Below are positions 15,057-37,458 of a stretch of DNA of 64,000 nt, piece by piece. Positions within the stretch are counted from its first letter, which is position 1, and each line of letters opens with the position of its first letter. A model generated the notes under the pieces. That model had not been told where the DNA came from, ran no database searches, and saw only the letters and a program-made list of their open reading frames with translations. The DNA is from Tsukamurella tyrosinosolvens (GTDB lineage: Bacteria > Actinomycetota > Actinomycetes > Mycobacteriales > Mycobacteriaceae). The DNA is taken from positions 4,712,001 through 4,776,000 of the forward strand of contig NZ_FNSA01000003.1 of assembly GCF_900104775.1 (NCBI RefSeq), written 5' to 3'. The translations under genes and the position numbers were made by a program.

Positions 15057-16277
15057 GGCTCTTCTCATTTCAGAGTGCGTTGACCCGGTCGGCGAGCTGA
15101 CCGGAGTGCAGTAGCGACCGCAAGATGTAGTGCTCGAGGTTGCGGAAGCCCAGGGCGATGCCACGCAGGTGCTCGAGTCGTCCGTTGATTGCCTCGACCG
15201 GGCCGTTGCTGACGCCGGTGTCGAAGTACGCCAGGATCTCTCGGCGGCGTTTCAAGAGGCTGCGGCCGAGCTGTGCGAGTTCGTCGAGCCCGGCGGGGAC
15301 TCCGGTGTGGATTCGTTTGAGAGTCTTGAACATTGCGATCTTCCCTGCCCGTCGGTCAGGGTGCTCGTAGGCGGCGATCAGATCCTGATACACCTGGGCG
15401 GTGACCTCGACCGCGACGTGACGCTCATCAGCAGCCAACGCCGAATCGAGCTTGACCTGCTGTTTGTCGGCGAGGAGAGCAGGCCGGGTGAGCAGGATCC
15501 GGCGAATCCCATAGAGCGGGTCCCCGGAGCGGCCGCGGTGCCCGCAGATCGCCTGCTGCAGCCGCTGCCGGCAGCCGGTGACCTTGTCCGCCGCCAGGTG
15601 GATGACGTGGAACGGGTCCATCACCGTTCGCGCTGCGGCGAGTACCTGCGCTGCGGCGGTGTGGTAGCCGCCGAACCCGTCCATCGCGGTGACCTTGATC
15701 CGGTCCCGGAACGCTTGATCGCGCTCTTGAAGCCAGCCGCGGAGGGCTTGCGCGGAGCGGCCGGCAACCATGTCCAGCAGCCGGGCGGGACCGGTGCCCT
15801 CACGCACGGGGGTCAGATCCACCAGGACCGTCACCCACGAGGAATCGCCGTTGCCGCGGACGTGCTTCCACTTGTGCTCATCAACGCCGAGTTCCCGAAC
15901 ACCCGTGAGATGCTGCGGGCCACGTGCAGCACCGAACGGGCACCGCAGACCGGCAGGTCCACCAGCTCGCGGACGATGTGATCGCGCACCACGCCGAGAC
16001 CTCGCCGCAGCCCGGGCATTCCAGGTCAGGCGTGAGGACCTCGCACCACAGGTGCGTCACGTCATCGGCGGTGGCAGCGTCGACGACGCTGACCCCCAGA
16101 TCGATGGCACGGCAGATGGTATCGGCAAGCAGAGACGACGTAGGCTCAGACACAGGTCCTCGGAGTGTGATCGAGATGGCGTAGGAACCTTCATCGTCAC
16201 ACCCCGGGGCCCTCTACATCTTGTGCCGCGCCACGTCAGCGGCGGACCCGCTCATGCACTCTCGCTTGGGAAGAGCC
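15057..16277 (-). mobile_element. ISL3-family insertion sequence, internally deleted
   Basis: The element is 1221 bp and bounded by imperfect inverted repeats. The left end reads GGCTCTTCTCATTTCAGAGT; the right end, read inward, begins GGCTCTTCCCAAGCGAGAGT. Both sides carry the duplication ACTTCAGT. The family is usually about 1.3-1.6 kb; the shortfall matches the missing central part of the transposase. The intact duplication shows that the insertion was not followed by recombination at its ends. Confidence 0.9.
15070..16153 (-). pseudogene. ISL3 transposase, internal deletion and frame disruption
   Basis: The N-terminal segment starts at the ATG at 16153 (MSEPTSSLLADTICRAIDLG) and includes a CPGCG zinc-binding start, then loses frame. 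The related segment VRDHIVRELVDLPVCGARS continues in another frame. The C-terminal 254 residues (15070-15834) are intact, with VTVLVDLTPVREG, VTAMDGFGGYHTA, MDPFHVIHLAADK and SNGPVEAINGRLEHLRG. Compared with the intact ISL3 transposase at 29467-30792, about 100 residues between the zinc-binding part and GVDEHKWKHVRG are missing. It is not expected to make active transposase. Confidence 0.85.
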
Positions 16278-16285
16278 ACTTCAGT
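16278..16285. repeat. 8-bp target-site duplication, right copy
   Basis: ACTTCAGT is identical to 15049-15056 on the other side of the ISL3 element. Confidence 0.9.
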
Positions 16286-23794: not shown

Positions 23795-25216
23795 ATGCCC
23801 ACCAACTATGACCTCGCGATCATCGGGTCCGGCGGCGGCGCGTTCGCTGCCGCAATCCGCGCGAGCACACTCGGGAAGTCGCTGGTGATGATCGAGCGCG
23901 GCACGCTTGGGGGGACCTGCGTGAACACCGGCTGCGTACCGTCCAAAGCCCTGATCGCGGCCGCCGCAGCACGGCACGCCGCTGCCGACGCTCCCGGCCG
24001 GTTCCCAGGCATCACAACGGCCGCAGGGCCGGTGGACATGCCCACGGCAGTCGCCGGAAAGCAGTCGCTGGTCGACATCTTGCGGACCGCGAAATACGCC
24101 GAGATCGCCGACTCTTACGGGTGGCAGACCCGGCGGGGCTTCGCGTCATTCGCCGGCACACCGGATGCGCCGGTCCTCGACATCACCGACGTCGACGGCA
24201 ACGTCGAAACCGTCACGGCCGAGCACTACCTGATCGCCACCGGCGCCCGCCCCTGGGCACCACCGATACCCGGGCTGGACGAGGCGGGGTATCTGACCTC
24301 GACCGCGGCAATGGACCTGACACAGCTTCCCCAGTCACTGCTAGTGCTCGGCGGCGGCTACGTCGCCTTGGAACAGGCACAGCTGTTCGCCCGCCTAGGA
24401 TCGCAGGTCACGCTGCTGGCCCGGTCGCAACTAGCGTCGAAAGAAGAACCAGAGGTCTCCAGGACGCTGGCCGAGGTCTTCGCCGATGAAGGGATCCAAG
24501 TCAAACGAGGAGCGGTACCCCTCCATGTCACCCGCACCGCAGACGGCACGGTGACCGTCACCAGCGATGTGTCCGGACGCTTGCAGGAAGATCGCGCCGA
24601 CCAGATTCTCGTTGCCCTCGGCCGCCGCCCCGCCACCGATGCAATGAACCTCGCCACGGTCGGAGTCCACACCGGCGACTCCGGACAGATCCTCGTCAGC
24701 GACCACCTGCAATCGTCCAACCCCCGGGTCTGGGCCGCAGGCGATGTCACCGGCCATCCGCAGTTCGTCTACGTCGCCGCCCGCCACGGCACCCTGGTCG
24801 CCGACAACTCACTCGCAGGCGCCGCCAAGTCCGTCGACTACACTCGACTGCCGCGAGTGACTTTCACCAACCCGGCGATCGGCACAGTCGGCATCACAGA
24901 AGAGCAGGCACGTACAGCGGGGATCCGCTGCGCCTGTCGCGTCCTGCCGCTCGACCACGTGCCCCGCGCGGTGGTGAACCGGGACACCCGAGGGTTCATA
25001 AAGATCGTCACCAACGCCGCCACGGGCGAGGTCCTCGGCCTGACCACCGTCGCCGAGAACGCAGGAGAACTGGTCGCCACCGGCGTTCACATCTTGGGCA
25101 AAACCGTCACCGAGATCGCCAACGCCTGGACGCCCTACCTGACCATGGCCGAAGGCATCCAGATCGCCGCCAAGTCCTTTGTCACCGACGTCTCGAAGCT
25201 GTCCTGCTGCGCCTAA
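23795..25216 (+). CDS. merA: mercury(II) reductase
   Basis: This pyridine-nucleotide disulfide oxidoreductase has 473 residues. LAIIGSGGGAFAAAIRA is the FAD site, GGTCVNTGCVPSKALIAAA the redox-active disulfide, LLVLGGGYVALEQAQ the NADPH site, VWAAGDVTG the second FAD contact, and the C-terminal KLSCCA the vicinal cysteine pair that is diagnostic of MerA. It reduces Hg(II) to volatile Hg(0). The N-terminal HMA (NmerA) domain of many MerA proteins is absent. No merT, merP or merB is visible; the MerR-type gene at 18481 could be its regulator. It has its own ribosome-binding site (AGGAG) 152 bases after copZ. Confidence 0.9.
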   Translation: MPTNYDLAIIGSGGGAFAAAIRASTLGKSLVMIERGTLGGTCVNTGCVPSKALIAAAAARHAAADAPGRFPGITTAAGPVDMPTAVAGKQSLVDILRTAKYAEIADSYGWQTRRGFASFAGTPDAPVLDITDVDGNVETVTAEHYLIATGARPWAPPIPGLDEAGYLTSTAAMDLTQLPQSLLVLGGGYVALEQAQLFARLGSQVTLLARSQLASKEEPEVSRTLAEVFADEGIQVKRGAVPLHVTRTADGTVTVTSDVSGRLQEDRADQILVALGRRPATDAMNLATVGVHTGDSGQILVSDHLQSSNPRVWAAGDVTGHPQFVYVAARHGTLVADNSLAGAAKSVDYTRLPRVTFTNPAIGTVGITEEQARTAGIRCACRVLPLDHVPRAVVNRDTRGFIKIVTNAATGEVLGLTTVAENAGELVATGVHILGKTVTEIANAWTPYLTMAEGIQIAAKSFVTDVSKLSCCA

Positions 25217-25252
25217 CGTCCGAGCGAACATCCCCGAATGGAACCCCCACCT

Positions 25253-25277
25253 GATGATACCCCCATGGGGTATCATC
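25253..25277 (+). promoter_or_regulatory. CsoR-type operator upstream of the multicopper oxidase
   Basis: A perfect inverted repeat has arms GATGATACCCC and GGGGTATCATC with a CAT centre. The core TACCCCCATGGGGTA matches the pattern of copper-responsive CsoR operators. It ends 26 bases before the ATG of the oxidase gene, so it should control that gene. It differs from the CCCCCTGGGGGG boxes of the sulfur module, and no copper-type CsoR gene is present in the window. Confidence 0.75.
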
Positions 25278-25303
25278 GGGTTATCTACGAGAGGTGCGAT
25301 TAT

Positions 25304-26803
25304 ATGGTGTACGCATCACGGCGCGCGGTGATTGCGGCTGGCCTGGGCCTGGTTGGGTCGGGGGTACTCGCCGCGTGCGGCGGCACGAGCACCAGCAAGC
25401 CGGGCGGCGGCTCGCGATCGATACAGGGCCCGCCGCTGCAGGCGACACCCCAGGCCGGGCAGAAGGTCGTCGAAACGACGCTCACCGCGCGGGAGAGCAC
25501 CGTCGACCTCGGCGGCATTACCGCCCGGACTTGGGCGTACGACGACGCCCTACCGGGCAAAGTCATCCGCGCCAAGGCCGGCGATTTCCTGCGCGTCACC
25601 CTCGACAACAAGCTTCCCGCCGACACCACCATCCACTGGCACGGGATCCGGCTCCGCAACGAAGCCGACGGTGTTCCCGGCGTCACCCAGGACGCGATCC
25701 GTCCCGGAAGAAGGTTCGTCTACGAGTTCACCGCACCGGACCCGGGCACCCACTACTTCCATCCGCATGTCGGCGCCCAACTCGACCGCGCCCTCTACGC
25801 CCCGATCATCATCGATGATCCCACCGAACGCGGCGCCTACGACGACGAGTGGATCGTCGTCCTCGACGACTGGACCGACGGCGTCGGCAAGAACCCCGAC
25901 CAGATCCTGGCCGACTTCCAGGCCAAGACCGGGTCACTCAAACCCGGAATGGATATGGGTGGCATGGATCACTCCTCGATGCCCGGCATGAGCAGCTCAC
26001 CGCTCGGCGATGCCGGCGACGTGATCTACCCGCACTACCTCATCAACGGCCGGATCCCCGCGGCGCCGACCGAGTTCCGCGCCAAACCAGGACAGCGGAT
26101 CCGCTTACGGATCATCAACGCCGGCTCCGACACTGTCTTCCGGGTCGCCCTCGGCGGCCACACCATGACCGTCACCCACACCGATGGACACCGGGTCAAT
26201 GACAAGCAAGCTCGGGCACTGTTCGTCGCCATGGGCGAACGGTACGACGTGACCGTCACCGCGGGCGCCGGCGCGTTCCCTCTCGTCGCCGCCGCGGAAG
26301 GCAAGAAGGGTCAGGCACTGGCGGTCCTGCGCACCGGATCCGGCGACGCACCCGCTGCCGACGTTCGCCCCGCTGAACTGGACGGCCCCGTCCTGCTCGG
26401 GGCGTCCGAATTGACCGCCGCCGACTCCGCGCGCCTACCCGACCGCGAACCGGACTCGACGCTCAAGGTCACGCTCAACGGCCAGATGGACCCGTACGCG
26501 TGGGGCATCAACGGCAAGAAGCACGGCGAAGACAAACCGTTGATAGTCCGGAAAGGCCAGCGCCTGCGGATGCAGATCACCAACGAAACGATGATGCTGC
26601 ACCCCATGCATATCCACGGCCACACCTGGGCCCTGCCCGGCAGCAGAGGCCTGCGCAAGGACACCCTGCTCCTCAAACCGATGGGCTCGGTCGAGGTCGA
26701 CCTCGACGCGGACAACCCCGGCAGCTGGGCCCTGCATTGCCATAACATCTATCACATGGAGATGGGCATGATGACCACCCTCCGGTACTCCGGTACACAG
26801 TGA
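25304..26803 (+). CDS. multicopper oxidase (CueO/copper-oxidase type), exported
   Basis: The protein has 499 residues. The N-terminus YASRRAVIAAGLGLVGSGVLAACG resembles a Tat-type signal ending in a lipobox cysteine. The four copper-ligand blocks of three-domain laccase-like oxidases are present: IHWHGIRL, HYFHPHVG, HPMHIHGH and HCHNIYHMEMGM. A Met/His-rich insert GMDMGGMDHSSMPGMS (about residues 218-233) is like the methionine-rich region of CueO that binds extra copper. It oxidises toxic Cu(I) to Cu(II) outside the cytoplasm. ATG at 25304 follows GAGAGG by about 10 bases. It is controlled by the CsoR-type operator directly upstream. Confidence 0.92.
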   Translation: MVYASRRAVIAAGLGLVGSGVLAACGGTSTSKPGGGSRSIQGPPLQATPQAGQKVVETTLTARESTVDLGGITARTWAYDDALPGKVIRAKAGDFLRVTLDNKLPADTTIHWHGIRLRNEADGVPGVTQDAIRPGRRFVYEFTAPDPGTHYFHPHVGAQLDRALYAPIIIDDPTERGAYDDEWIVVLDDWTDGVGKNPDQILADFQAKTGSLKPGMDMGGMDHSSMPGMSSSPLGDAGDVIYPHYLINGRIPAAPTEFRAKPGQRIRLRIINAGSDTVFRVALGGHTMTVTHTDGHRVNDKQARALFVAMGERYDVTVTAGAGAFPLVAAAEGKKGQALAVLRTGSGDAPAADVRPAELDGPVLLGASELTAADSARLPDREPDSTLKVTLNGQMDPYAWGINGKKHGEDKPLIVRKGQRLRMQITNETMMLHPMHIHGHTWALPGSRGLRKDTLLLKPMGSVEVDLDADNPGSWALHCHNIYHMEMGMMTTLRYSGTQ

Positions 26804-26915
26804 CACACCTGCGGCCCCGTGATGGACCGCAGGACAAGTGCACGCCTTGGCGTTACCGGACCTGCACCATTTCGGCTCATGGCGACTGCGGTCAATCCGA
26901 TCTGGCATCTCGCCA

Positions 26916-26973
26916 GTTCAACTCGACATCGGCACAGAGTGTTCACCTCGACAGTAAGGATCGTTCAAGGACG
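26916..26973 (+). promoter_or_regulatory. PHO-box-like repeats upstream of the split phosphatase
   Basis: Three GTTCA-starting repeats occur: GTTCAACTCGA (26916), GTTCACCTCGA (26941) and GTTCAAGGACG (26963). The last two are exactly 22 bases (two 11-base units) apart. Actinobacterial PhoP boxes are 11-base direct repeats beginning GTTCA, so the phosphatase was probably phosphate-starvation controlled before disruption. Confidence 0.4.
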
Positions 26974-26990
26974 TGTGATCCCATGCTGCA

Positions 26991-27082
26991 ATGACGAAGA
27001 TCGATGGTGGAAAGACGCGCGTCGCGGCGGCCGTCAGCGTGGTGGCGGTGCTCGGTGTCGTGGCGGCGTGCGGCAGTAACGA
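26991..27082 (+). pseudogene. lipoprotein alkaline phosphatase, 5' fragment
   Basis: ATG at 26991 opens 30 codons that encode a lipoprotein signal peptide (KTRVAAAVSVVAVLGVVAACGSN), with the lipobox cysteine at residue 27. The frame is interrupted directly after SN by the composite ISL3 element and would run to a stop 5 codons later. The other part of the gene begins at 30796 with the same AGT-AAC codons in the same frame, so removing 27083-30795 plus one duplication gives a continuous gene. Confidence 0.9.
27075..27082. repeat. 8-bp target duplication AGTAACGA, left copy
   Basis: AGTAACGA directly precedes the GGCTCTTCC end of the composite element and is repeated at 30796-30803. It encodes SN plus the first two bases of the next codon of the phosphatase. 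Confidence 0.95.
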
Positions 27083-27248
27083 GGCTCTTCCCAGATGAGG
27101 GTGTAGGTCGGTCGGGCGCGTCGGTCCGCAGATAGACGTCGAGGTCTCCCGACGATGGAGGTTCCTACGCCATCCATCCGAAAGACCTCGACGTGACCGA
27201 CACAACCCCGCCGGCCGGCTTCGGCCGCCCTGACCTCACCGCCTTCGC
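27083..27248 (+). repeat. truncated left end of the ISL3 element (direct repeat of 29357-29522)
   Basis: These 166 bases align without gaps to the left end of the intact ISL3 element at 29357-29522, with only scattered differences. They include the start of the transposase (VTDTTPPAGFGRPDLTAFA), which then runs to a stop at 27270. At 27249 the match stops abruptly and GGCTCATCCCAATCG begins, an inverted copy of the first 15 bases of the element's right end. Confidence 0.9.
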
Positions 27249-27476
27249 GGCTCATCCCAATCGACCCTGATCGGGTCTGCTGACCCCCTCGACGAGAACG
27301 CAGCGACATCACAGCCACCCAACCCCGACCGTCCGGGAAGCTGGGGCACGTCACACGGCCTGTGCTGCGGGCGTGTCGAGTGGGTCGTCCAGGGGCGACG
27401 CAGGAGCGTCGACGCGACGTGCTGAGAGGTGGTTCCAACCGAGCGCTAGGACACTGGCTACAGGCATGGCGATAGG

Positions 27477-28418
27477 TCAGGAACGGCGTCGCTCCCTGCG
27501 CAGGAGGGAGCGCAGAGTCTCGGCGTTCGCGTAGCCGACCCGTAGCGCGATCTCGGCGGAGGTGAGGTCCGTGGTTGCTGAGAGGTGCCGAGCTCGTTCG
27601 ATGCGAAGCCGTTGGACGAAGCCGAGCGGAGTGAGGTTGAGCGCCGCACGGACTCGTCGTTCGAGGGTGCGCCGGCTGGTGCCGAGCGACTGCGCGACGA
27701 AGGCGACGTTGAACGGTTCGTCCAGGCGGGCGCGCACGAAGCGTTCGAACTCGACGACGATCGGGTCCTCGTGCCGGAGATGTTCGTAGGCGACGAAGGC
27801 CGCCTGCGACGGACGCTCGTCTATGATGAGGAGCTTGGCGACATGTTGGGCCAGGTCGGGGCTGATCGATCGCACGAGTGAGAGCGCGAGGTCGATGTGG
27901 GCGAACGCGGCGCCGGCGGTGACGAGGTTCCCGTCGACCACGACCATGGTGTCGAGATCGAGGGCGACGGTCGGATAGCGCTTCAGGAACTCCGGCCCCA
28001 GGAACCAACTGGTCGTCGCCCGCCGATGATGCATCCGTCCAGTCTCGGCGACAGCGAACACGCCGGTGCACGCCGCGGCGATCCGGGTGGTCGCCTCGTC
28101 GAGGCGCCCGAGCGAGGCGATGACCGAACGAGCATCTCGGCTCTGGAGGGCGTCGTGGGTCGCGGCGGCCGTGAGGGTTCCAAGCGCAGGGACGACGACC
28201 ACGTCGAACTCTCCGGACTCCGACAGCGGGTGGTCCACCGACAGGGTCATCGATGCCGTCGTGGTCACTCGCCGTTTCGGTCCGAGGATGGCGAGTTCGA
28301 TCGCGTCGATCCGCGGGTCGACATCGCTGCGGGCTCCGTCGGCCACCCGCACGATGTCGATGATCGACGCGACAGCCGAACCGAAGCAGCCGTCGATCGC
28401 GATCAGTCCGATACGCAT
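27477..28418 (-). CDS. GlxA-like AraC-family regulator with DJ-1/PfpI domain
   Basis: The protein has 313 residues. An N-terminal class-I glutamine-amidotransferase-like domain (MRIGLIAIDGCFGSAVASII, VVVVPALGTLTAAA, RIAAACTGVFAVAETG with the nucleophile-elbow cysteine) is followed by two AraC helix-turn-helix units (FNVAFVAQSLGTSRRTLERR and LTSAEIALRVGYANAETLRS). Such proteins are transcription factors; the ligand is unknown. ATG at 28418 begins the family sequence. It is divergent from the monooxygenase-like gene at 28527 and probably regulates it. It lies within the composite element. Confidence 0.85.
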   Translation of the reverse strand: MRIGLIAIDGCFGSAVASIIDIVRVADGARSDVDPRIDAIELAILGPKRRVTTTASMTLSVDHPLSESGEFDVVVVPALGTLTAAATHDALQSRDARSVIASLGRLDEATTRIAAACTGVFAVAETGRMHHRRATTSWFLGPEFLKRYPTVALDLDTMVVVDGNLVTAGAAFAHIDLALSLVRSISPDLAQHVAKLLIIDERPSQAAFVAYEHLRHEDPIVVEFERFVRARLDEPFNVAFVAQSLGTSRRTLERRVRAALNLTPLGFVQRLRIERARHLSATTDLTSAEIALRVGYANAETLRSLLRRERRRS

Positions 28419-28526
28419 GGCGCCAACAATAGCAATACTGCCGTATACGCCACTTCTCACATGCCCTTGCTCGTCATACGCTGAACTCGCTTCACCAAGA
28501 AACCTCGACACCTAGGAGAACCCCTC

Positions 28527-28838
28527 ATGTCCACACCCGCATCACTTCCGTATGCCTTCGTCGCCAAGATCGTCGCGGCCGATGGACAGCACGACGCGCT
28601 CGCCGATCTGCTCGCCGGCGCTGTCGCGCTCGCCAACGAAGAAGTAGGAACGATTGTCTGGTTCGCGGTCAGGACCCACGCCGACACCTTCTGGATCTTC
28701 GATGCATTCCCCGACGAGGCCGCTCGCGACGCCCACGCCAACGGCGCCATCGTCGCAGCCCTGATGGCCAACCAGCACCTCCTCGGCGCAGCACCCGAGA
28801 TCCTGGCGGCCGACGTCCTCGCGTCCAAGCTTCCGTAG
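28527..28838 (+). CDS. antibiotic-biosynthesis-monooxygenase (ABM/YgiN-like) domain protein
   Basis: This is a dimeric alpha-beta-barrel protein of 103 residues: AFVAKIVAADGQHDALADLL opens it, and WFAVRTHADTFWIFDAFPDEAARDAH carries the conserved strand and DxF/DxxAxxxH pattern of ABM domains. Members oxidise quinols or other small aromatics or simply bind them. It starts behind AGGAG, 108 bases from the divergent GlxA-like gene, which suggests a regulator-target pair carried as cargo of the composite element. Confidence 0.8.
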   Translation: MSTPASLPYAFVAKIVAADGQHDALADLLAGAVALANEEVGTIVWFAVRTHADTFWIFDAFPDEAARDAHANGAIVAALMANQHLLGAAPEILAADVLASKLP

Positions 28839-29356
28839 TCCGCCAACGCACGAGACGATCGCGCCCCGCCGAGCCGTCGCCAGGTCGCGACGCAGCGCCA
28901 CGCTGCGTTGCCGAGCGGTGCGAGGCCTATCGGCACACGGACAGGATGTCCGAGCGTTCATCCGGCGAGGGGTCCGTCGCAGAGGAGAGCGACGTCGGGT
29001 GTCGGGCAGAGCCGTGAGGCCAGCGCATCGCGCGACCATCAGAACCGAACCGCCCCTGCCCTACGTTTCCGCAGGTCAGGGGCTGTTCGCCGGAGCCGCC
29101 TGTCGGAATCGAACCGACGACCTAATCACGTCGGCTTTGCGTCTATCGCCTGATGCGCCCACTGGGCGAACGAGCCGCTGACCTGCGCGAACGCCGAGCG
29201 TGGGGGACGCCGCCATCCGGTGGTGACCGACGACGACCGACTAGTACCGACCGTTTCACCGGAGCTTGCGGCGGCGTCGAAGCCGAGCAAGCTCCATTCT
29301 TTTAGCTCACCGCGCCCTCCTCCTCGCCGGTCCCGTCTTCGTCGAAGACGTTTCAG
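28839..29356. other. 518-base gap inside the composite element, with a tRNA T-arm-like scrap
   Basis: There is no convincing gene. On the minus strand, GTCGG-TTCGATT-CCGAC (29102-29118) is an ideal tRNA T-arm and is followed by AGGCGGCTCC, like a tRNA 3' end. The expected 5' acceptor, D-arm and anticodon arms do not pair well, so this is at most the 3' part of a tRNA gene picked up by the element. Confidence 0.35.
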
Positions 29357-30795
29357 GGGTCTTCTCAGATGCCGGTGTAGGTCGGCCGGGCGCGTCGGTC
29401 CGCAGATAGACGTCGAGGTCTCCCGACGACGGAGGTTCCTACGCCATCCATCCGAAAGACCTCGACGTGACCGACACAACCCCGCCGGCCGGCTTCGGCC
29501 GCCCTGACCTCACCGCCTTCGCTCGACTCGACGGCCTCGGTCTGAGCGTGACCGGACAACGACTTGAACCGGATCGTGCGGTCCTAGCGTGCCGCGTGGT
29601 GGAACCAGATCAGTGGTGCCGACGGTGCGGCAGCGAAGGCGCTGCTCGTGACACCGTGATCCGGCGGTTGGCCCACGAGCCGCTGGGCTGGCGACCGACC
29701 GTGCTGGAAGTTGTAGTGCGCCGCTACCGCTGTGCCGACTGCGGACACGTGTGGCGCCAAGACACCAGCGCCGCTGCGGAGCCACGCGCGAAGCTCTCGC
29801 GCACCGGGCTGCGGTGGGCGCTGGAAGGGATCGTGGTCGCACACCTCACCGTCGCCCGTGTCGCCGAGGGACTCGGGGTCGCGTGGGACACCGCCAACAA
29901 CGCGGTCCTGGCTGAAGGCAAGCGGCTGCTGATCAACGACCCCACGCGGTTCGAGGGCGTGAAGGTCATTGGCGTCGATGAGCACGTCTGGCGCCACACC
30001 AGGCGTGGCGACAAGTATGTCACCGTGATCATCGACCTCACCCCGGTCCGCGATGGCGCCGGCCCAGCAAGGCTGCTGGACATGGTCGAGGGCCGGTCGA
30101 AGGCGGCGTTCAAGACCTGGCTCGCCGACCGCGACGACGCCTTCCGTGACGCGGTCGAGGTGGTCGCGATGGACGGCTTCACCGGGTTCAAGACCGCCGC
30201 TGCGGAGGAGATCCCGGACGCGGTCACGGTGATGGATCCCTTCCACGTCGTGCGCCTGGCCGGTGACGCCCTCGACAGGTGCCGGCGCCGGGTCCAACTC
30301 GCGATCCACGGGCACCGTGGGTTCAGGGACGACCCGCTCTACAAGTCGCGGCGCACGCTGCACACCGGCGCGGACCTGCTCACCGACAAGCAGAGCGACA
30401 GGCTACGCGCGCTGTTCGTTGATGACGCTCACGTCGAGGTCGAGGCGACCTGGGGTGTCTACCAGCGCATGATCGCCGCCTATCGCCACGAGGACCGGCA
30501 ACGTGGCCGCGAGCTCATGGAGAAGCTGATCACCGACCTCAGCGCCGGCGTCCCCAAGGTGCTCACCGAGCTCACCACCCTGAGCCGGACCCTGAAGAAG
30601 CGAGCCGCTGACGTGCTCGCCTACTTCGAACGACCCGGCACCAGCAACGGGCCGACCGAGGCGCTCAACGGACGGCTCGAACACCTGCGCGGCTCCGCAC
30701 TCGGGTTCCGCAACCTGACCAACTACATCGCCCGAAGCCTGCTCGAGACCGGCGGCTTCAGACCCCAACTCCTACACCCCCGATTGGGATGAGCC
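29357..30795 (+). mobile_element. intact ISL3-family insertion sequence
   Basis: The element is 1439 bp from the left end GGGTCTTCTCAGATGCCGGT to the right end whose inward reading is GGCTCATCCCAATCGGGGGT. It contains one full-length transposase. Its right end is also the right end of the composite element; its left end has no AGTAACGA, so it does not have its own target duplication. Confidence 0.85.
29467..30792 (+). CDS. ISL3-family transposase
   Basis: The transposase has 441 residues. The N-terminal zinc-binding region has CRVVEPDQWCRRCGSEGAARD and YRCADCGHVW (CxxC pairs), then a helix-turn-helix region, then the DDE domain with VIGVDEHVWRH, VTVIIDLTPVRDG, VVAMDGFTGFKTAAAEE, MDPFHVVRLAGD and SNGPTEALNGRLEHLRG. 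The stop TGA lies in the right terminal repeat. The GTG at 29467 begins the family sequence; no strong ribosome-binding site is seen. It appears functional and could have mobilised both ISL3 elements here. Confidence 0.92.
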   Translation: MTDTTPPAGFGRPDLTAFARLDGLGLSVTGQRLEPDRAVLACRVVEPDQWCRRCGSEGAARDTVIRRLAHEPLGWRPTVLEVVVRRYRCADCGHVWRQDTSAAAEPRAKLSRTGLRWALEGIVVAHLTVARVAEGLGVAWDTANNAVLAEGKRLLINDPTRFEGVKVIGVDEHVWRHTRRGDKYVTVIIDLTPVRDGAGPARLLDMVEGRSKAAFKTWLADRDDAFRDAVEVVAMDGFTGFKTAAAEEIPDAVTVMDPFHVVRLAGDALDRCRRRVQLAIHGHRGFRDDPLYKSRRTLHTGADLLTDKQSDRLRALFVDDAHVEVEATWGVYQRMIAAYRHEDRQRGRELMEKLITDLSAGVPKVLTELTTLSRTLKKRAADVLAYFERPGTSNGPTEALNGRLEHLRGSALGFRNLTNYIARSLLETGGFRPQLLHPRLG

Positions 30796-30803
30796 AGTAA
30801 CGA
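30796..30803. repeat. 8-bp target duplication AGTAACGA, right copy
   Basis: This is identical to 27075-27082, directly after the GATGAGCC end of the composite element. It is in the same reading frame (AGT-AAC-GA) as the left copy. Confidence 0.95.
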
Positions 30804-32181
30804 CGGGGGCCCGGGGGTCTCGGGCGACACCGCGTCGAAGGTGGACATCACCCGGTCCGCGGCGGGCGACATCACCGCCCACGGGGGTGCGAAGCGCCTC
30901 GCCGGCGACCAGACGCAGGCGATCGCCGATTCGATCCAGCGGTCGAAGGCGAAGAACGTCATCCTGATCATCGGTGACGGCACCGCCAACCAGGAGCTCA
31001 CGCTGGCCCGTGACTACCAGTGGGGCGCCGGCGGCCAGATCCCCGGCATCGACCAGCTGCCGCTGTCGGGTGACTACACCACGTACGCGCTGGACAAGAA
31101 CACCAAGAAGCCCGACTACACGACCGATTCCGCCGCCTCCGGCTCCGCGTGGGCCACCGGCACCAAGACCTACAACGGCGCCGTCGGCGTGGACGTCAAC
31201 GGCAAGGCGCAGCGCTCGATCCTCGAGATCGCCAAGGCCAACGGCCGCAAGACGGGCAACGTCACCACCACCGAGCTGCAGGACGCGACCCCGGCCGTGC
31301 AGGTCGCGCACGTCGCGCAGCGCAAGTGCTACGGCCCCGTCGCCACCAAGGAGAAGTGCGCGTCGGACGCCCTGGAGAACGGCGGCCTCGGGTCGATCAC
31401 CGAGCAGCTGCTGGCGGCCCGCGCCGACGTCACCCTGGGCGGCGGCTTCAAGACCTTCCAGGAGGTCGCCGGCGCCGGCCAGTACGCGGGCAAGACGCTC
31501 GAGGTGCAGGCCAAGGAGCGCGGCTACCAGATGGTCCGCTCGGGTGAGGAGCTCGACGCCGTCAAGGACGCGGGCCAGGACAAGCCGCTGCTCGGCGTCT
31601 TCGCCGACGGCAACCTGCCCCGCCTGTGGGGCAAGGCCACCGCGACCAAGGAGGGCGGCAAGGAGCCGGCCGTCACCTGCTCGCCGAACCCCGAGTTCGC
31701 CGCGACCCCGAAGCTCGAGACCATGACCAAGAAGGCGATCGACCTGCTGGGGGGCGACAAGGGCTTCTTCCTGCAGGTCGAGTCCGGCTCCGTCGACAAG
31801 GCCAACCACGACGCCGACCCGTGCGGCCAGATCGGCGAGACCGTCCAGCTGTCCGAGGCCGTCACCGCGGCGCTCGACTTCGCGAAGAAGGACAAGGACA
31901 CCCTGGTCATCGTCACCGGCGATCACGCGCACACCAGCCAGATCGTCGAGACCGGCTCCGTCACCCCGGGCCTGACCCGCACGCTCAACACCAAGGACGG
32001 CGGCCTGCTCACGGTCAACTACGGCACGTCGCTCGACCCGGGCGAGGAGCAGCACACCGGCGGCCAGGTCCGCATCGCCGCGTACGGCCCCGGCGCCGCC
32101 AACGTCGTCGGCGTCACCGACCAGACCGACCCGTTCTTCTACATCACCGACGTACTCGGCCTGGACCGGGCCAAGAAGTAG
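30796..32181 (+). pseudogene. alkaline phosphatase, main 3' fragment (signal peptide separated)
   Basis: From AGT at 30796 the frame runs 461 codons: a linker, then the PhoA-type alkaline phosphatase fold with [20 protein letters not shown] (first metal aspartate), [20 protein letters not shown] (catalytic serine region), [20 protein letters not shown] and [15 protein letters not shown] (metal-binding Asp/His). The other metal-ligand histidine is in [12 protein letters not shown]. Without the 5' fragment the protein has no signal peptide; a GTG at 30841 could start a cytoplasmic version, where the family's disulfides and zinc loading would be compromised. Codon use (AAG, CTG, GAC dominant) is strongly biased, suggesting a well expressed gene before disruption. 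Confidence 0.9.
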
Positions 32182-32339
32182 GAGGCAAGCCACGGCCACG
32201 CGTTCGCGATCACCCTTCGCGGACCGACTGGACGAGATCCCGGTCGGCATGATCGCCGGCCGGACAGCCCGGCTCGATGTCCCGGGCCGACGGAGCATCG
32301 TGTTCAGCGGCGCCACCCGCAACTCGGCGTAGGTGGCTA

Positions 32340-32786
32340 TCACGAGTGCGTTTCGCGGGGCGTTGCGCAGTCCGGCCCTTCGCTCCCGTTGCGGTCATGG
32401 ACGGCCTGGGCATGGAGCTGGTGGCGGGTCTGCGGCCAGGTGCGTCGTCCTTCGGCGGTGGTGAGCCGGTGCGCGTGCACCAGATCCCAGGCGGCGCGTA
32501 GGTTGGCCGGGAAGGTGCGAGCGGTCGCTTCGCCGAGCATCAGCTCACGACGCTCGCCGTGTTCACGCCAGATCAGGAACGCGTAGGTGCGGCGGGCCTT
32601 TCGGCGACGGTTGAGCTTGACGCGGCCGAGCGCGACCCTGCCGTCGTCGCAGACGACGCGGCGGCGCACCTCGCCGCCGGCGGCGACGTCCTGCTCGGTT
32701 TGGTGCTCACGCAGCGTGGCTGCGGCCGAATGCACCGCGTCCGGTGGAAGCGGCGCCGGACGCCACGTCCGGCGGATAGCCCGCAC
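32340..32786 (-). CDS. hypothetical protein downstream of the XRE-ImmA gene
   Basis: This basic protein of 148 residues was not recognised. It is Arg-rich (RRRKARRTYAFLIWREHGERR) with no membrane segment and no clear domain. It begins with GTG 17 bases after the stop of the XRE-ImmA/IrrE gene on the same strand, so it probably shares its transcript. The composition suggests nucleic-acid binding, but that is only a guess. Confidence 0.5.
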   Translation of the reverse strand: MRAIRRTWRPAPLPPDAVHSAAATLREHQTEQDVAAGGEVRRRVVCDDGRVALGRVKLNRRRKARRTYAFLIWREHGERRELMLGEATARTFPANLRAAWDLVHAHRLTTAEGRRTWPQTRHQLHAQAVHDRNGSEGPDCATPRETHS

Positions 32787-32802
32787 AGCGACCTGGACGG
32801 GG

Positions 32803-33942
32803 TTAGACGCTGCTCAGCTGCGGCCGCAGCCGCGGGAACGGCCACGAGTCGCCGAACACGTCCTGCAACTCCCGGGGCCTGGTCGCGGTGATCGCAGCGA
32901 TATCGGCGACGGCGTAGCGACTGTTCCGCAGTGAGGCGAAGAACTCCGCGGCCGCCTGCGGCCGGACCGGGTACGTCGATCGCCGCTTGTCCCGCAGCAG
33001 GTTCCGGGCGTTGAGGGTGCGGAACCAGTACCGGTACTGCGATTCGGTGATGTCGGCGTGCACGTGCGCGCGGCGCACCAGCGCCGACAGGCTTACCCCC
33101 CACCGGCGCCGCAGATCGTCGAGGGTGTCGATCCGGGCCGGGGTGATCCCCCGCAGCTCGTCGCGCAACGACCCGTATGGGGCGAGGAACTCCGCGGCGA
33201 ACCGATCCGCCCGGTTCTCGATCTCCTTGAGCCCCAACGACACACCCGACAGTTCATCCATCACCAGGTGCCCCAGCTCGTGGGCGAGGGTGTGCCGCTG
33301 CCGATCCTCCGGCGCGTGGGGGTTGAGCAGGATCACAGCGGTCACCGGGCCGGTGGTGCGGACGCTGATCGCGTCGACCTTGTCCACATCGGCGGGCATC
33401 GGCAAGATCATGATCCCGGCGCTCTCGAGCAGGCCGGCGATGTCGGAGACCGGGCCATGGATGCGCCACGCCTGCCGCACCAGCTGCGCGGCCTCCTCCG
33501 ACCCCTCATCGAGCAGGTCCACATCCAGCTGCGGCACCGACCGCGGATGCACCGCGGTCGCCAACGTGTCCTCATGCAACCGGTTGAGCATCCAACCGGC
33601 GAAGTTCGCATGCTGAATCAACCTGTCCTGCAACCGCTTAGTGACAGTTTGGCTACGGAAGTGCACACCCTCGGGCGGCTCCTGCGGCAACACCGTGCAC
33701 AGCAGCTCCTCGGTCACATCGAGCACCTGCGCCCACAACGTCAGATCCGCACCACTGACCGATCCGTCGCCGCTCTCAGCGCGCGAGACGTAACTCGGGG
33801 AACGCCCCAAGGCATCAGCAACCTGCTTGGCCGTCAGTCCGCGGCGCTCACGGGTGGCGCTCAATGTGGCGGCCACCGCGCAGCGGTCGGTCGACAGCGG
33901 CGAACGCGACGCCCGCGAATCAAGATCCGTCACCGTTCCCAT
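32803..33942 (-). CDS. XRE helix-turn-helix protein with ImmA/IrrE metallopeptidase domain
   Basis: The protein has 379 residues. The N-terminal HTH (RRGLTAKQVADALGRSPSYV) is followed by a linker and an M78 zinc-peptidase domain with HTLAHELGHLVMDE and the downstream glutamate in ENRADRFAAEFLAP. A C-terminal helical extension contains a second HTH-like part (PARIDTLDDLRRRWGVSLSALV). ImmA/IrrE proteins cleave a repressor in response to DNA damage or other stress and often govern mobile-element transfer. The ATG at 33942 is preferred to 33972. It probably controls this segment of the island. Confidence 0.85.
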   Translation of the reverse strand: MGTVTDLDSRASRSPLSTDRCAVAATLSATRERRGLTAKQVADALGRSPSYVSRAESGDGSVSGADLTLWAQVLDVTEELLCTVLPQEPPEGVHFRSQTVTKRLQDRLIQHANFAGWMLNRLHEDTLATAVHPRSVPQLDVDLLDEGSEEAAQLVRQAWRIHGPVSDIAGLLESAGIMILPMPADVDKVDAISVRTTGPVTAVILLNPHAPEDRQRHTLAHELGHLVMDELSGVSLGLKEIENRADRFAAEFLAPYGSLRDELRGITPARIDTLDDLRRRWGVSLSALVRRAHVHADITESQYRYWFRTLNARNLLRDKRRSTYPVRPQAAAEFFASLRNSRYAVADIAAITATRPRELQDVFGDSWPFPRLRPQLSSV

Positions 33943-34072
33943 GGCCAAAATCTTAGACCCTCCCACCCTCACGGATCACGCTGACGTGCCGAACACCACG
34001 CAATCATTCCCCGATCACCGGTAATCCCTACCGTCACACCCGCACCACGGAGGAGGAACGGCCGTTGGGGTT

Positions 34073-34888
34073 CTACTCGTCCGCTTCGGCATCCTCGGCG
34101 GCGTTCGGGTTGGTGGGGACCTCGAAGCGGCTGCGCTCCGCGGCCAGGCCGGCACTGCGGGCGAGGACGGCGATGTCGGCCTCAGCGCGGGCGAGGCGGT
34201 CTTGAAGGTCCTCATTCTCGGCACGCAGGCGGGCCGCTTCCTCACGGGCTTCGTCCGTTGCGGCCAGCACCAACGCCCGCTCGGAAGTCATCAGCCACGG
34301 CACCCTGCGGCGCCGCCAGGCCACCAGCATGCGGCGCGCCGACTCGATGTCCACCTCGTGCGGGGCCCACAGGTACCGCTCGCCGAGGCGGGTGCGGGCC
34401 TGCACTCCGATGATCCGGTTCGCGTCGTTGAGCGTTCCGGACAGGTCGACGTTGGTCACCGCGAACTCGGCGGTGCTCACCACGTCGAACGGCAGCGTGT
34501 AGTCCTGGCACTGCTGCTTGCGCAGCCGCTGGCGCTCACTCTGCGAGACCTGCCGCCACGGGGTGTCCCGCTCGACCTTCACGTGCAGGTTGCCGTGCAC
34601 GATCAGCTCGGTCCAGTTGTGCGGCTCGTGCAGCCGCACGTGCGGCGGGTTCACCGCGTTGGTCCACTCGCGCAGCCCCTCCGACCACACCATCGCCGTC
34701 AGCAGCCCCCGCGACTTCGAGTCGTACCGACGTCGCGACGCCGGATCCAGGTACAACGCCTCACACAACTGCGCACACGCCTCATCCGCAGCGAGCGCGA
34801 TCGCAGCGATCGGCACCATATGCGGCCGCAGCATTCGCAATGCCTGCGTTCGCGGCGCCCTCGGACGCAGCCCTTCGATCCGCACCAT
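34073..34888 (-). CDS. hypothetical protein with C-terminal coiled coil
   Basis: The protein has 271 residues and is not recognised. The middle part (WTELIVHGNLHVKVERD, YTLPFDVVSTAEFAVTNVDL, VQARTRLGERYLWAPHEVD) is mixed alpha/beta; residues about 215-255 (EEAARLRAENEDLQDRLARA) form a coiled coil, and the tail is acidic. ATG at 34888 follows GGGGAGG, a strong ribosome-binding site. It sits upstream of the XRE-ImmA gene on the same strand, 130 bases apart. The neighbourhood looks like a plasmid or integrative element, so a replication, partition or phage-related role is conceivable but not shown. Confidence 0.55.
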   Translation of the reverse strand: MVRIEGLRPRAPRTQALRMLRPHMVPIAAIALAADEACAQLCEALYLDPASRRRYDSKSRGLLTAMVWSEGLREWTNAVNPPHVRLHEPHNWTELIVHGNLHVKVERDTPWRQVSQSERQRLRKQQCQDYTLPFDVVSTAEFAVTNVDLSGTLNDANRIIGVQARTRLGERYLWAPHEVDIESARRMLVAWRRRRVPWLMTSERALVLAATDEAREEAARLRAENEDLQDRLARAEADIAVLARSAGLAAERSRFEVPTNPNAAEDAEADE

Positions 34889-35052
34889 GACGCCTCCCCA
34901 GAAATCGTTACCAAACTTGCTGTCCATCTTGCAGAGGGGGTAACGATCCTGACGTTCGGACACGCCGCAGCGCAACCATCGAACTCGACGGCTCCGACCG
35001 ATTTGAGGAGAAGGCAGGGAACCGATCACCGAGCCGATGCGTCCCAATAGGA

Positions 35053-35250
35053 GTGAGCACCAATCGCGACTTACCCGACGGCACCGAGAGCGACATCCGG
35101 GACGACTTCTACGACGGAGTCACTGTGCTGCCGCCCTGGGTCGAAGCCTGGTTCGCTCAGGAACGCACACGCCACCGCAAAGCCCGCGGCGAGAGCCACC
35201 CCGCCGGCGACGACTGGGACCGCTGGGAACACCAACTCGGCATCGACTGA
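35053..35250 (+). CDS. small hypothetical protein
   Basis: This is an acidic and Trp-rich protein of 65 residues (LPPWVEAWFAQERTRHRKARG, DDWDRWEHQLGID). GTG at 35053 overlaps a GGAG-like ribosome-binding site. It is divergent from the coiled-coil gene, and the 164 bases between could hold both promoters. No family was recognised; the regular amphipathic pattern and codon use support a real gene. Confidence 0.5.
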   Translation: MSTNRDLPDGTESDIRDDFYDGVTVLPPWVEAWFAQERTRHRKARGESHPAGDDWDRWEHQLGID

Positions 35251-36361
35251 AACCCCACCATCCGCTACAGCCCAGATAACACTGACGCAGACGAACACAG
35301 CACGACCCCAGAACACCGTCCGCTACAGAGTGGGACACCGAACCGATAGCTACAGATAAGAAGGCGGCGGCCAGCTGGGCGTGGAGCGCCTCCCGCCCCA
35401 GGCCGCCGAGCGCCGCCAGTGCCTCGAGCCGGGCCGGCACCTCGCGCGGGGAATTGGCGTGCACGGTGCCGGCACCGCCGTCGTGACCGGTGTTCAGCGC
35501 CGTGAGCAGGTCGACGACCTCGGCGCCACGGACCTCGCCGACGACGATCCGATCGGGCCGCATCCGCAGCGCCTGCCGCACCAGATCGCGCACCGTCACC
35601 TCGCCGACGCCCTCGACGTTGGCGCCCCGCGCCAGCAGGGAGACGACGTGCGGGTGCACCGGATCGAGCTCGTGCGCATCCTCGACGCACAGCACCCGCT
35701 CCGCCGGATCCACCGCGCCGAGCAGACCGTTGAGCAGCGTCGTCTTACCGCTGCCCGTGCCGCCGACCACGAGGAAGGCGAGCCGCGCCGCCACCACGCG
35801 GCGCACGAGGCCGGCGACCTCCGCCGGCACCGCACCGCCCTCGATCAGGGAGTCGAGCGTCTGGGTGGCGGGCCGCAGTACGCGCAGCGAGATGCACGTG
35901 CCGCCGTGCGCGAGGGGAGGAAGCACCGCGTGCAACCGGATCCCGCTTCCCGCGCGGCCGCCGGGCCCGGCGGGCAGGTGGCCGTCAACCCAGGGCTGCG
36001 CGTCGTCCAACCGCCGCCCGGCCGCCAACGCGAGGCGCGCGGCCAGTCGCCGCACGGCATCGTCGTCCTCGAAGAGGACGCCAGCGGGTTCGAGACCCGC
36101 GCCGCGGTCGACCCACACCGTGCGCGGGCCGCAGACGAGCACGTCCGCGACATCCGGGTCAGCGAGCAGCGGCTCGAGCCGGCCGGCTCCGACCAGCTCG
36201 GTCTCGAGGTAGGCCAGGCCGTCGAGCAGGTCCGTATCCCCCAGGACCCCTCCGCATTCCGCGCGGAGCGCCGCCGCCATGACATCGGGGGTGAGGACCG
36301 CGGCCGTGTGCGCGAGCCGCTCCCGCACTCGCGCCAGCAGGTCACCGTCCGGGGACGTCAT
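35120..36361 (-). pseudogene. tadA: tadA (Flp pilus/secretion ATPase), 3' end replaced at island boundary
   Basis: The ATG at 36361 overlaps the ssd stop (ATGA). The TadA/VirB11-like ATPase is intact through LVVGGTGSGKTTLLNGLLG (Walker A), ERVLCVEDAHELDPVHPH (Asp box), RMRPDRIVVGEVRGAEVVDL (Walker B) and LNTGHDGGAGTVHANSP (His box). After EALHAQLAAA (about 35367) the sequence leaves the family, and an unrelated Cys/Arg-rich tail runs to a stop at 35120. The last 30-40 residues of TadA and the tadB/tadC genes expected next are missing. The break marks the right edge of the island. The hybrid protein probably does not work. Confidence 0.85.
35261..35357. repeat. CTACAG direct repeats at the island edge
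   Basis: TCCGCTACAG occurs at 35261-35270 and 35319-35328, each preceded by ACCA or ACCG, and ATAGCTACAG at 35346-35355. A second shared word, CAGATAA, follows the first and third. They end about 10 bases before the tadA junction and could be recombination-site or regulator repeats of the mobile segment. Confidence 0.4.
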
Positions 36362-37458
36362 GCCGCTCCCCTCCGCACGCCGTCGAGCACACGCCCGGCC
36401 GCGACGGCCAGCGGCGTTCCCCGCCGCAGCCGCAGCCCACCGTCGTCGAGCTGGGAGGCGAGGCCCGGCTGCGGGCGCATCGATACCAGCAGCGGCGCAC
36501 CGACGGCCCGCTCGACGTCGCGCGCAGAGAGCCCGCCGGGCGCGGGACCGCGCACCACCAGCCCGACCCGTCGCGCGCGGCGCGCCACCCCGTCGATCAC
36601 GGAACGCGCGGCGACGCACCCCCGCACCGTGGCGCCGACGACGACGAGCACCACGTCCGCGACTTCGAGGCATGCGGAGGTCGCCGGGTCGTCCCGCCGG
36701 GGCAGGTCGACGACGGTGACGCCCACGCTGCGGCGGCCCGCGTCGATCACGGCGAGCAGGCCCTCGACCGGGATCTCGGGCGGCGACGCCCCGCCCACGG
36801 CGTCGCTCGTCCCGGCGACCGCCCCGCCCGCCGACAGCACCGCGACGGCCCCGGCACGCCCCGGAAGCGCCGCGACCAGGGCGTCGGACGGCACGTGCCC
36901 GCCGCGCAGCGCGAGGTCGCCCCAGCGGAGGCCGGGCATGTCCGCGCAGCCGAGGAGCAGGTCGAGACCGCCGCCCCACGGGTCGGCGTCGACCGCGAGC
37001 GCGGTGATCCCGCGGCCGGGCGCCGTCACGGCGACGGCCGCCGCGAGGACGGAGGCGCCGGCTCCGCCGTGCCCGCCGAGGACGGCGACCACGCGGGACC
37101 GCGCACCGTCGTCCTGTTCCCGGGCCGCGAGAAATCGTGCCAGTTCACGGACCTGCGCGGGCAGCACGAAGACCTGTGCCGCGCCGACCTCGACGGCCGC
37201 CGCCAGTTCGGCCATCCCCGCCTCGGCCGCGACGATCGCCACCCCGTCGCGACGTGGGAGGCCGCCCGCTCGCGCCGCCTCCGCCATCGCGGTCGCAGCG
37301 CCGAGATCGAGCACCAACCCCGCAGCCGAGGCCCAGCACGCGCGCGGTCGGCCACGGTCGATGACCGTGACCGACCGTGCGGCGGCGGCCGCGGCCCGTC
37401 GTACGTCGTCGGCCAGGGCCCCGTCGGCCACCGCCATCCCGATCTCGATCCCCTGCAT
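36358..37458 (-). CDS. ssd: Ssd/CpaE-like septum-site or pilus-localisation protein
   Basis: This is a MinD/ParA-superfamily protein of 366 residues with an N-terminal receiver-like domain. ARSRVVAVLGGHGGAGASVLAAAVAV is the deviant Walker A region and ITALAVDADPWGGGLDLLLG the following Asp-containing strand. The orthologous position in M. tuberculosis (Rv3660c) holds Ssd, next to tadA and reading the same way. CpaE-type proteins position the Tad machinery. The ATG at 37458 starts the conserved sequence. It remains intact although the tad operon downstream is broken. Confidence 0.85.
   Translation of the reverse strand: MQGIEIGMAVADGALADDVRRAAAAAARSVTVIDRGRPRACWASAAGLVLDLGAATAMAEAARAGGLPRRDGVAIVAAEAGMAELAAAVEVGAAQVFVLPAQVRELARFLAAREQDDGARSRVVAVLGGHGGAGASVLAAAVAVTAPGRGITALAVDADPWGGGLDLLLGCADMPGLRWGDLALRGGHVPSDALVAALPGRAGAVAVLSAGGAVAGTSDAVGGASPPEIPVEGLLAVIDAGRRSVGVTVVDLPRRDDPATSACLEVADVVLVVVGATVRGCVAARSVIDGVARRARRVGLVVRGPAPGGLSARDVERAVGAPLLVSMRPQPGLASQLDDGGLRLRRGTPLAVAAGRVLDGVRRGAA

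Follow-up and report, generated by a model that had tools for sequence, protein, structure and literature searches.

The split gene and the inserted element

The window, i.e., the whole 64,000-nucleotide stretch analysed here, corresponds to C3:4712001-4776000 of the 5.28-Mb host genome G000. In it, a PhoA-type alkaline phosphatase gene lies in two parts on either side of an ISL3-type element. The features of this locus (window positions, strand) are:

26991..27082, + strand: phosphatase gene, 5' part (30 codons and two further bases), with a lipoprotein-type signal peptide ending VVAACGSN; its final 8 bases are the left target duplication
27075..27082, unstranded: left target duplication, AGTAACGA
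27083..30795, + strand: passenger-carrying ISL3 element, 3713 bp
27083..27248, + strand: 166-bp copy of an ISL3 left end, forming the outer left end; 96% identical to 29357-29522, with the same outer tip as the simple 1439-bp ISs L083 and L084
27249..27263, - strand: 15 bp that exactly match the right tip in reverse complement, adjoining the 166-bp fragment
27477..28511, - strand: passenger 1, regulator with DJ-1/PfpI and AraC-type HTH domains, 344 aa (313 aa in plasmid annotations, which start later)
28527..28838, + strand: passenger 2, ABM-like protein (antibiotic biosynthesis monooxygenase fold), 103 aa
29357..30795, + strand: complete ISL3 element, 1439 bp, inner left tip mutated; 98.5-99.1% identical to the simple ISs L064, L083 and L084
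29467..30792, + strand: ISL3 transposase, 441 aa; NF033550 at 363 bits (cut-off 180), PF01610 at 190 bits (cut-off 23)
30796..30803, unstranded: right target duplication, AGTAACGA
30796..32181, + strand: phosphatase gene, 3' part, which encodes the PhoA enzyme domain; GTG 30841 is the first internal start listed

The ATG at 26991 starts 30 codons that end with the lipobox-like VVAAC followed by GSN, after which the leader frame enters the element and terminates after 35 codons. In profile searches, the enzyme domain scored 319 bits against PF00245 (cut-off 24), while the 446-aa frame from GTG 30841 reached 706 bits with the PhoA model NF007810 (cut-off 540) and matched PDB 5c66 (E=4.9e-168) as well as 1b8j and others. 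The likeness to PhoA alkaline phosphatases (PDB 5c66, 1b8j) covers the enzyme domain over its length; unlike them, the unbroken homologues have a lipobox-type signal peptide, and the gene examined here is interrupted. Thus the family profile of PhoA is matched, but an unbroken frame with an export signal is missing at this locus, given that the gene is split at 27083. The closest relatives of the phosphatase are found in Tsukamurella.

Directly inside the two octamers lie ISL3-type ends, GGCTCTTCCCAGATGAGGGTGTAGG from 27083 and CCTACACCCCCGATTGGGATGAGCC to 30795, so that the element reads GGCTCTTCCCAG.. at its left end and ..GGGATGAGCC at its right end. An earlier note on this DNA had placed the octamers and the ISL3-type ends at these same positions. 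Members of the ISL3 family end in imperfect inverted repeats that are a few tens of bp long. Here, 27083-27107 and 30771-30795 form 25-nt repeats that are 80% complementary, and the assignment to ISL3 draws on these repeats, the transposase profile and the 8-bp target duplications found at the split site and nine further distinct sites. The transposase gene stops with a TGA three bases before the element end, in frame with the enzyme part of the phosphatase (window 30790-30803).

The regulator and the ABM-like gene are situated between the ends, and the duplication lies outside the whole unit at 10 of 20 distinct sites, as in a passenger-carrying IS (tIS). In a composite transposon, two complete IS copies would surround the passengers; a two-full-IS composite was dropped for the present unit because its left IS copy is only 166 bp long. 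The earlier note was therefore right about an ISL3 insertion but loose in calling it composite, as only one ISL3 element of the unit is complete, and it is accompanied by a 166-bp copy of its own left end. The 15-bp right-tip sequence next to that copy occurs within the window only at 27249-27263 and at the right end, and it may be the scar of an older rearrangement.

Passenger 1, which we take to be GlxA-like, fell below every NCBIfam cut-off. Passenger 2 scored 19.6 bits against PF03992 (E=0.001), which is below the gathering threshold of 23.1, so that membership of the ABM family was not reached by this profile; it matched the solved structure PDB 2pd1 with E=3.7e-23, and the plasmid annotation says ABM. 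The ABM-like protein varies at 0 to 3 of its 103 residues across 26 passenger loci. By similarity, one passenger would be predicted to be a regulator and the other a small enzyme of the oxidoreductase type.

The empty site and the fate of the phosphatase

Tsukamurella sputi HKU70 (L007) was found to have a natural empty site, with a single AGTAACGA and an unbroken gene (4872-6341, 489 aa) whose frame opens with the same letters as window 26991-27082. On either side of this site, the T. sputi sequence agrees base for base with window 24000-27082 and 30796-35362, the first mismatch being at 35363. This shows directly the insertion into an intact exported-phosphatase gene for which the earlier note had argued by mending the sequence in silico, a step that is no longer needed. 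The fused frame is indeed open, but its length is not the about 491 codons proposed, because the natural frame has 489 aa plus the stop, i.e., 490 codons; the absence of other damage holds for the flanks compared with T. sputi.

Upstream frames were also read in 14 further homologues. All eight from Tsukamurella, which include T. sputi's own second copy (L009), have the lipobox cysteine, CG and a GPG linker; in the six from Gordonia and Jongsikchunia, the cysteine is present and the linker is different. With an uninterrupted T. sputi gene that carries the CGSN-linker junction in frame, no frame break, and the lipobox, CG and GPG in 8/8 Tsukamurella homologues, the insertion reading withstood the search for orthologues without this junction. 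With its boundaries, the duplication, the natural empty site, a second copy and relatives all observed directly, we regard it as very probable that insertion of an ISL3-type element split the phoA-type gene at 27083.

Mechanistically, the ISL3-family transposase (29467-30792) would use the outer left end at 27083 and the right end at 30795 as one unit. The 3713 bp, passengers included, would have been inserted just after the lipobox cysteine, at the 8-bp target AGTAACGA, with repair duplicating the 8 bp. The gene now consists of two pieces, a 35-codon leader whose frame ends within the element and an enzyme domain that lacks its start, signal peptide and lipobox.

It follows from such an arrangement that no active enzyme from the split locus would be expected to reach the cell surface. 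PhoA-type enzymes require export for disulfide formation. Conversely, the split might involve no loss if a transcript of the transposase gene or a start at GTG 30841 yielded a cytoplasmic or otherwise exported phosphatase, given that the transposase frame, which is also that of the enzyme part, ends so close to the junction, and that the 446-aa frame from GTG 30841 contains the enzyme domain. The TGA nevertheless parts the two frames and no signal peptide is left, which together with the need for export makes this alternative very unlikely. The gene is thus split, as the earlier note had said, while its inactivation is a prediction from sequence.

A perfect duplication would in principle permit precise excision, and passages of PMC7986276 count ISL3 among the families with circular intermediates, so that a reversible switch, in which excision restores the gene at a useful frequency, may be envisaged. 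Against this, the empty site belongs to another species, and we consider such a switch highly improbable.

The host genome also encodes a paralogue of the split gene that is 90% identical, unbroken, 489 aa long from the nearest Met, and equipped with the same lipobox. Given this intact paralogue, the split gene is best seen as a second copy within a region common to several species. At the other Tsukamurella loci, no match to the window neighbourhood was found outside the gene, and these homologues are therefore probably kin of the paralogue rather than of the split locus. Any loss of the enzyme at the split locus is probably buffered by the intact paralogue, and because the latter is 90% identical to the split gene, the effect of the insertion on the host is probably small.

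Further copies, shared flanks and target duplications

A second identical 3713-bp copy is located at G000:C3:3867400-3871112 (L029 5401-9113), with its own duplication, TTCAAGCC, on both sides. It sits at the end of a frame that is annotated as an MMPL transporter in T. tyrosinosolvens NCTC13231. Two identical 3.7-kb repeats in a genome can mislead assembly, and an assembly or chimera artefact was therefore considered. Both G000 sites, however, have perfect duplications, and the separate assembly of NCTC13231 contains both insertions with the same octamers and 2900/2900 identical flank bases on each of four sides. From this agreement the host is probably T. tyrosinosolvens, although the flanks of the phosphatase site are common to other species too. 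A further Tsukamurella species, G007, has the same right junction. On these further assemblies, the artefact reading was rejected as scarcely credible.

Among 16 Tsukamurella genomes, full copies (100% identity) were found in G000 (two) and G007 (four), and none was reported in the other 14. The fourth copy of G007 has the same right junction in the phosphatase gene as the window and is identical from 30796 to 35362, while its left flank is different. Its left side ends with AACGA, before which the sequence of the window is found up to about 16278 (the junction was compared by eye), so that G007 lacks the approximately 10.8 kb (16279 to about 27078) to the left of the phosphatase insertion. 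The left edge of this gap coincides with the tip-like GGGAAGAGCC carried by the remnant of a second ISL3 element at window 15070-16278, which is 67% identical over about 700 bp and includes a piece of transposase (15070-15834, minus strand). The gap looks like an IS-adjacent deletion and suggests that the phosphatase insertion predates the sharing of the region between the two species.

Window 1-35362 is present at 100% identity in T. sputi HKU70 (a rounded figure for 1-24000, exact for 24000-27082 and 30796-35362) and largely in G007. In both, the identity ends at 35362, within a frame with a T2SSE domain (35120-36979, minus strand). This segment carries merA-labelled and multicopper oxidase genes, and it resembles a mobile island inserted at an identical position in three species.

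Of 397 genomes sampled from the order, 45 matched the element at E<=1e-50. Besides G000, near-full copies with 97-98% identity occur in a single piece in G095, G298 and G369 and in two pieces in G341; the remaining matches were parts of the element, the IS alone or weaker relatives. Among 72,556 plasmid records, 112 matched and 15 of these cover at least 80% of the query; those 15 together with H16, H17 and H18 are the 18 of the 112 whose loci were examined. Relatives with 96.5-98% identity are found on plasmids of Rhodococcus, Pseudonocardia, Dietzia and Cryobacterium as well as in other genomes of the order, so that the pair of regulator and ABM-like genes rides an ISL3 element across several actinobacterial genera. 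Among the best candidates per genome, a solo IS of the same kind was not reported in G000 or G007, where the six near-identical IS copies listed are all inside passenger elements.

For the target duplications, only passenger loci with both outer ends were considered, and loci in which both flanking octamers were the same were counted once. Loci that lack an outer end or have other sequence in its place (L052, L085, L088, L112, L120) and partial copies (L056/L094, L061/L092, L062/L095, L063/L096) were excluded. Perfect 8-bp duplications were found at 10 of the 20 distinct sites, namely L030 (the phosphatase site; also L082), L042 (the second copy; also L081), L053, L054, L055, L086, L087, L098, L099 and L100. 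The sites that have none are L089, L090, L091, L093, L097, L111, L113 (also L114 and L118), L115, L116 (also L117) and L119, and these include all the Rhodococcus plasmid sites counted (L111, L113, L115, L116 and L119). By genome, duplications are perfect at 2/2 copies in G000 and 3/4 in G007. At several of the sites lacking a duplication, the left octamer is in common and the right octamer differs, which argues that rearrangement beside the element is common. For simple ISs with more than 98% identity and readable flanks, L084 is duplicated and L083 is not; for more distant ones, L067, L075 and L076 are duplicated, L068 is not, and L065 ends at a contig edge.

Origin of the passenger-carrying unit and its known relatives

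The outer left end and the simple ISs L064, L083 and L084 have the left tip GGCTCTTCCCAGATG, while the inner left tip of the element reads GGGTCTTCTCAGATG. Because of this mutated tip, the inner 1439-bp IS may not readily leave alone, so that the regulator and the ABM-like gene would travel along with it. The inner tip is mutated at 19 of the 26 passenger loci, many of which are copies of one lineage and hence not independent; it is intact at four (L085, L086, L112 and L119) and has neither form at three (L055, L087 and L088). Outside those 26, it is also intact at L058, L059 and L060.

The passengers could have been acquired by a classical composite, i.e., two ISL3 elements around them, the left one of which later shrank to 166 bp. 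The 166 bp of IS left end stand at the left in direct orientation, as this origin would predict, and at L085 an inverted near-complete IS (752-2010, 1259 of 1439 bp) is joined to the left of the passenger segment, replacing the outer left end. However, none of the mapped loci, with flanks of 0.6-3 kb, has two complete ISs in the required order, and the 15 bp that follow the fragment match the right tip in reverse complement, which is not the order that a shrunken IS leaves. Every mapped passenger locus that retains positions 1-166 continues through the same junction, and the present mobile unit therefore has one IS only. Overall, we consider a composite origin rather unlikely.

A bolder reading, which we hold to be somewhat less likely than not, is end capture followed by end decay: the IS would have gained an extra left end beyond its neighbor genes, its own left end would then have mutated, and the transposase would since mobilize itself only together with those genes. 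If so, the 3.7-kb class would illustrate, across genera, how an IS turns into an obligate gene carrier.

The transposase, ends and duplication make the unit an ISL3 element, and its gene content makes it a passenger-carrying IS, as already described for ISPst2. Passages of PMC6305408 describe ISPst2a/b of Arthrobacter plasmids as passenger-carrying ISL3 elements of 2985 bp with an ArsR regulator and a putative permease, and list 8-bp direct repeats for ISPst2 and ISArsp7. Like ISPst2a/b as described there, the Tsukamurella element belongs to ISL3 and has inverted repeats of about 25 bp, 8-bp direct repeats and two passengers including one regulator. In contrast to ISPst2a/b, its passengers are others, its left end consists of 166 bp that repeat the end of its internal IS, and a second, mutated left end lies inside it.

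Simple ISs of the ISPfr2 type (1439 bp, 98.5-99.1% identity), a label that comes from plasmid annotation only, share the outer ends and, at L084, the 8-bp duplication, but have no passengers. ISPfr2 is reported in Brevibacterium in passages of PMC6579920; the name also occurs in PMC2909200, and both ABM and ISL3 terms occur in PMC12063358, which is a Lactobacillus paper by its title. Passenger-carrying ISs are named tIS in a passage of PMC7986276, and one of PMC10886379 calls the mechanism of ISL3 transposition still unclear. In the portions of the open-licence literature searched, no name was found for the element or its passengers, which is not a strong claim of absence from print.

With a filled and an empty site, a second copy, simple IS relatives and a relative with a bordering deletion of about 10.8 kb, this locus is an unusually complete natural insertion record. 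The process is an ordinary one, of which the locus is a very clean case, and the interest of the locus also lies in the possible route from a simple IS to an obligate passenger carrier.

Two tRNA-like features were dropped. For a stretch at about 29090-29180, ARAGORN found no tRNA in the window and the one Rfam match was far below the cut-off (E 0.19), while the tRNA-Leu call at L095 3670-3764 overlaps a transposase-like frame and was taken as spurious. The passenger elements at L086, L089, L090, L091 and L092 have an extra 359-360 bp at the point where the window passes directly from 28879 to 28880; the window carries the shorter version.
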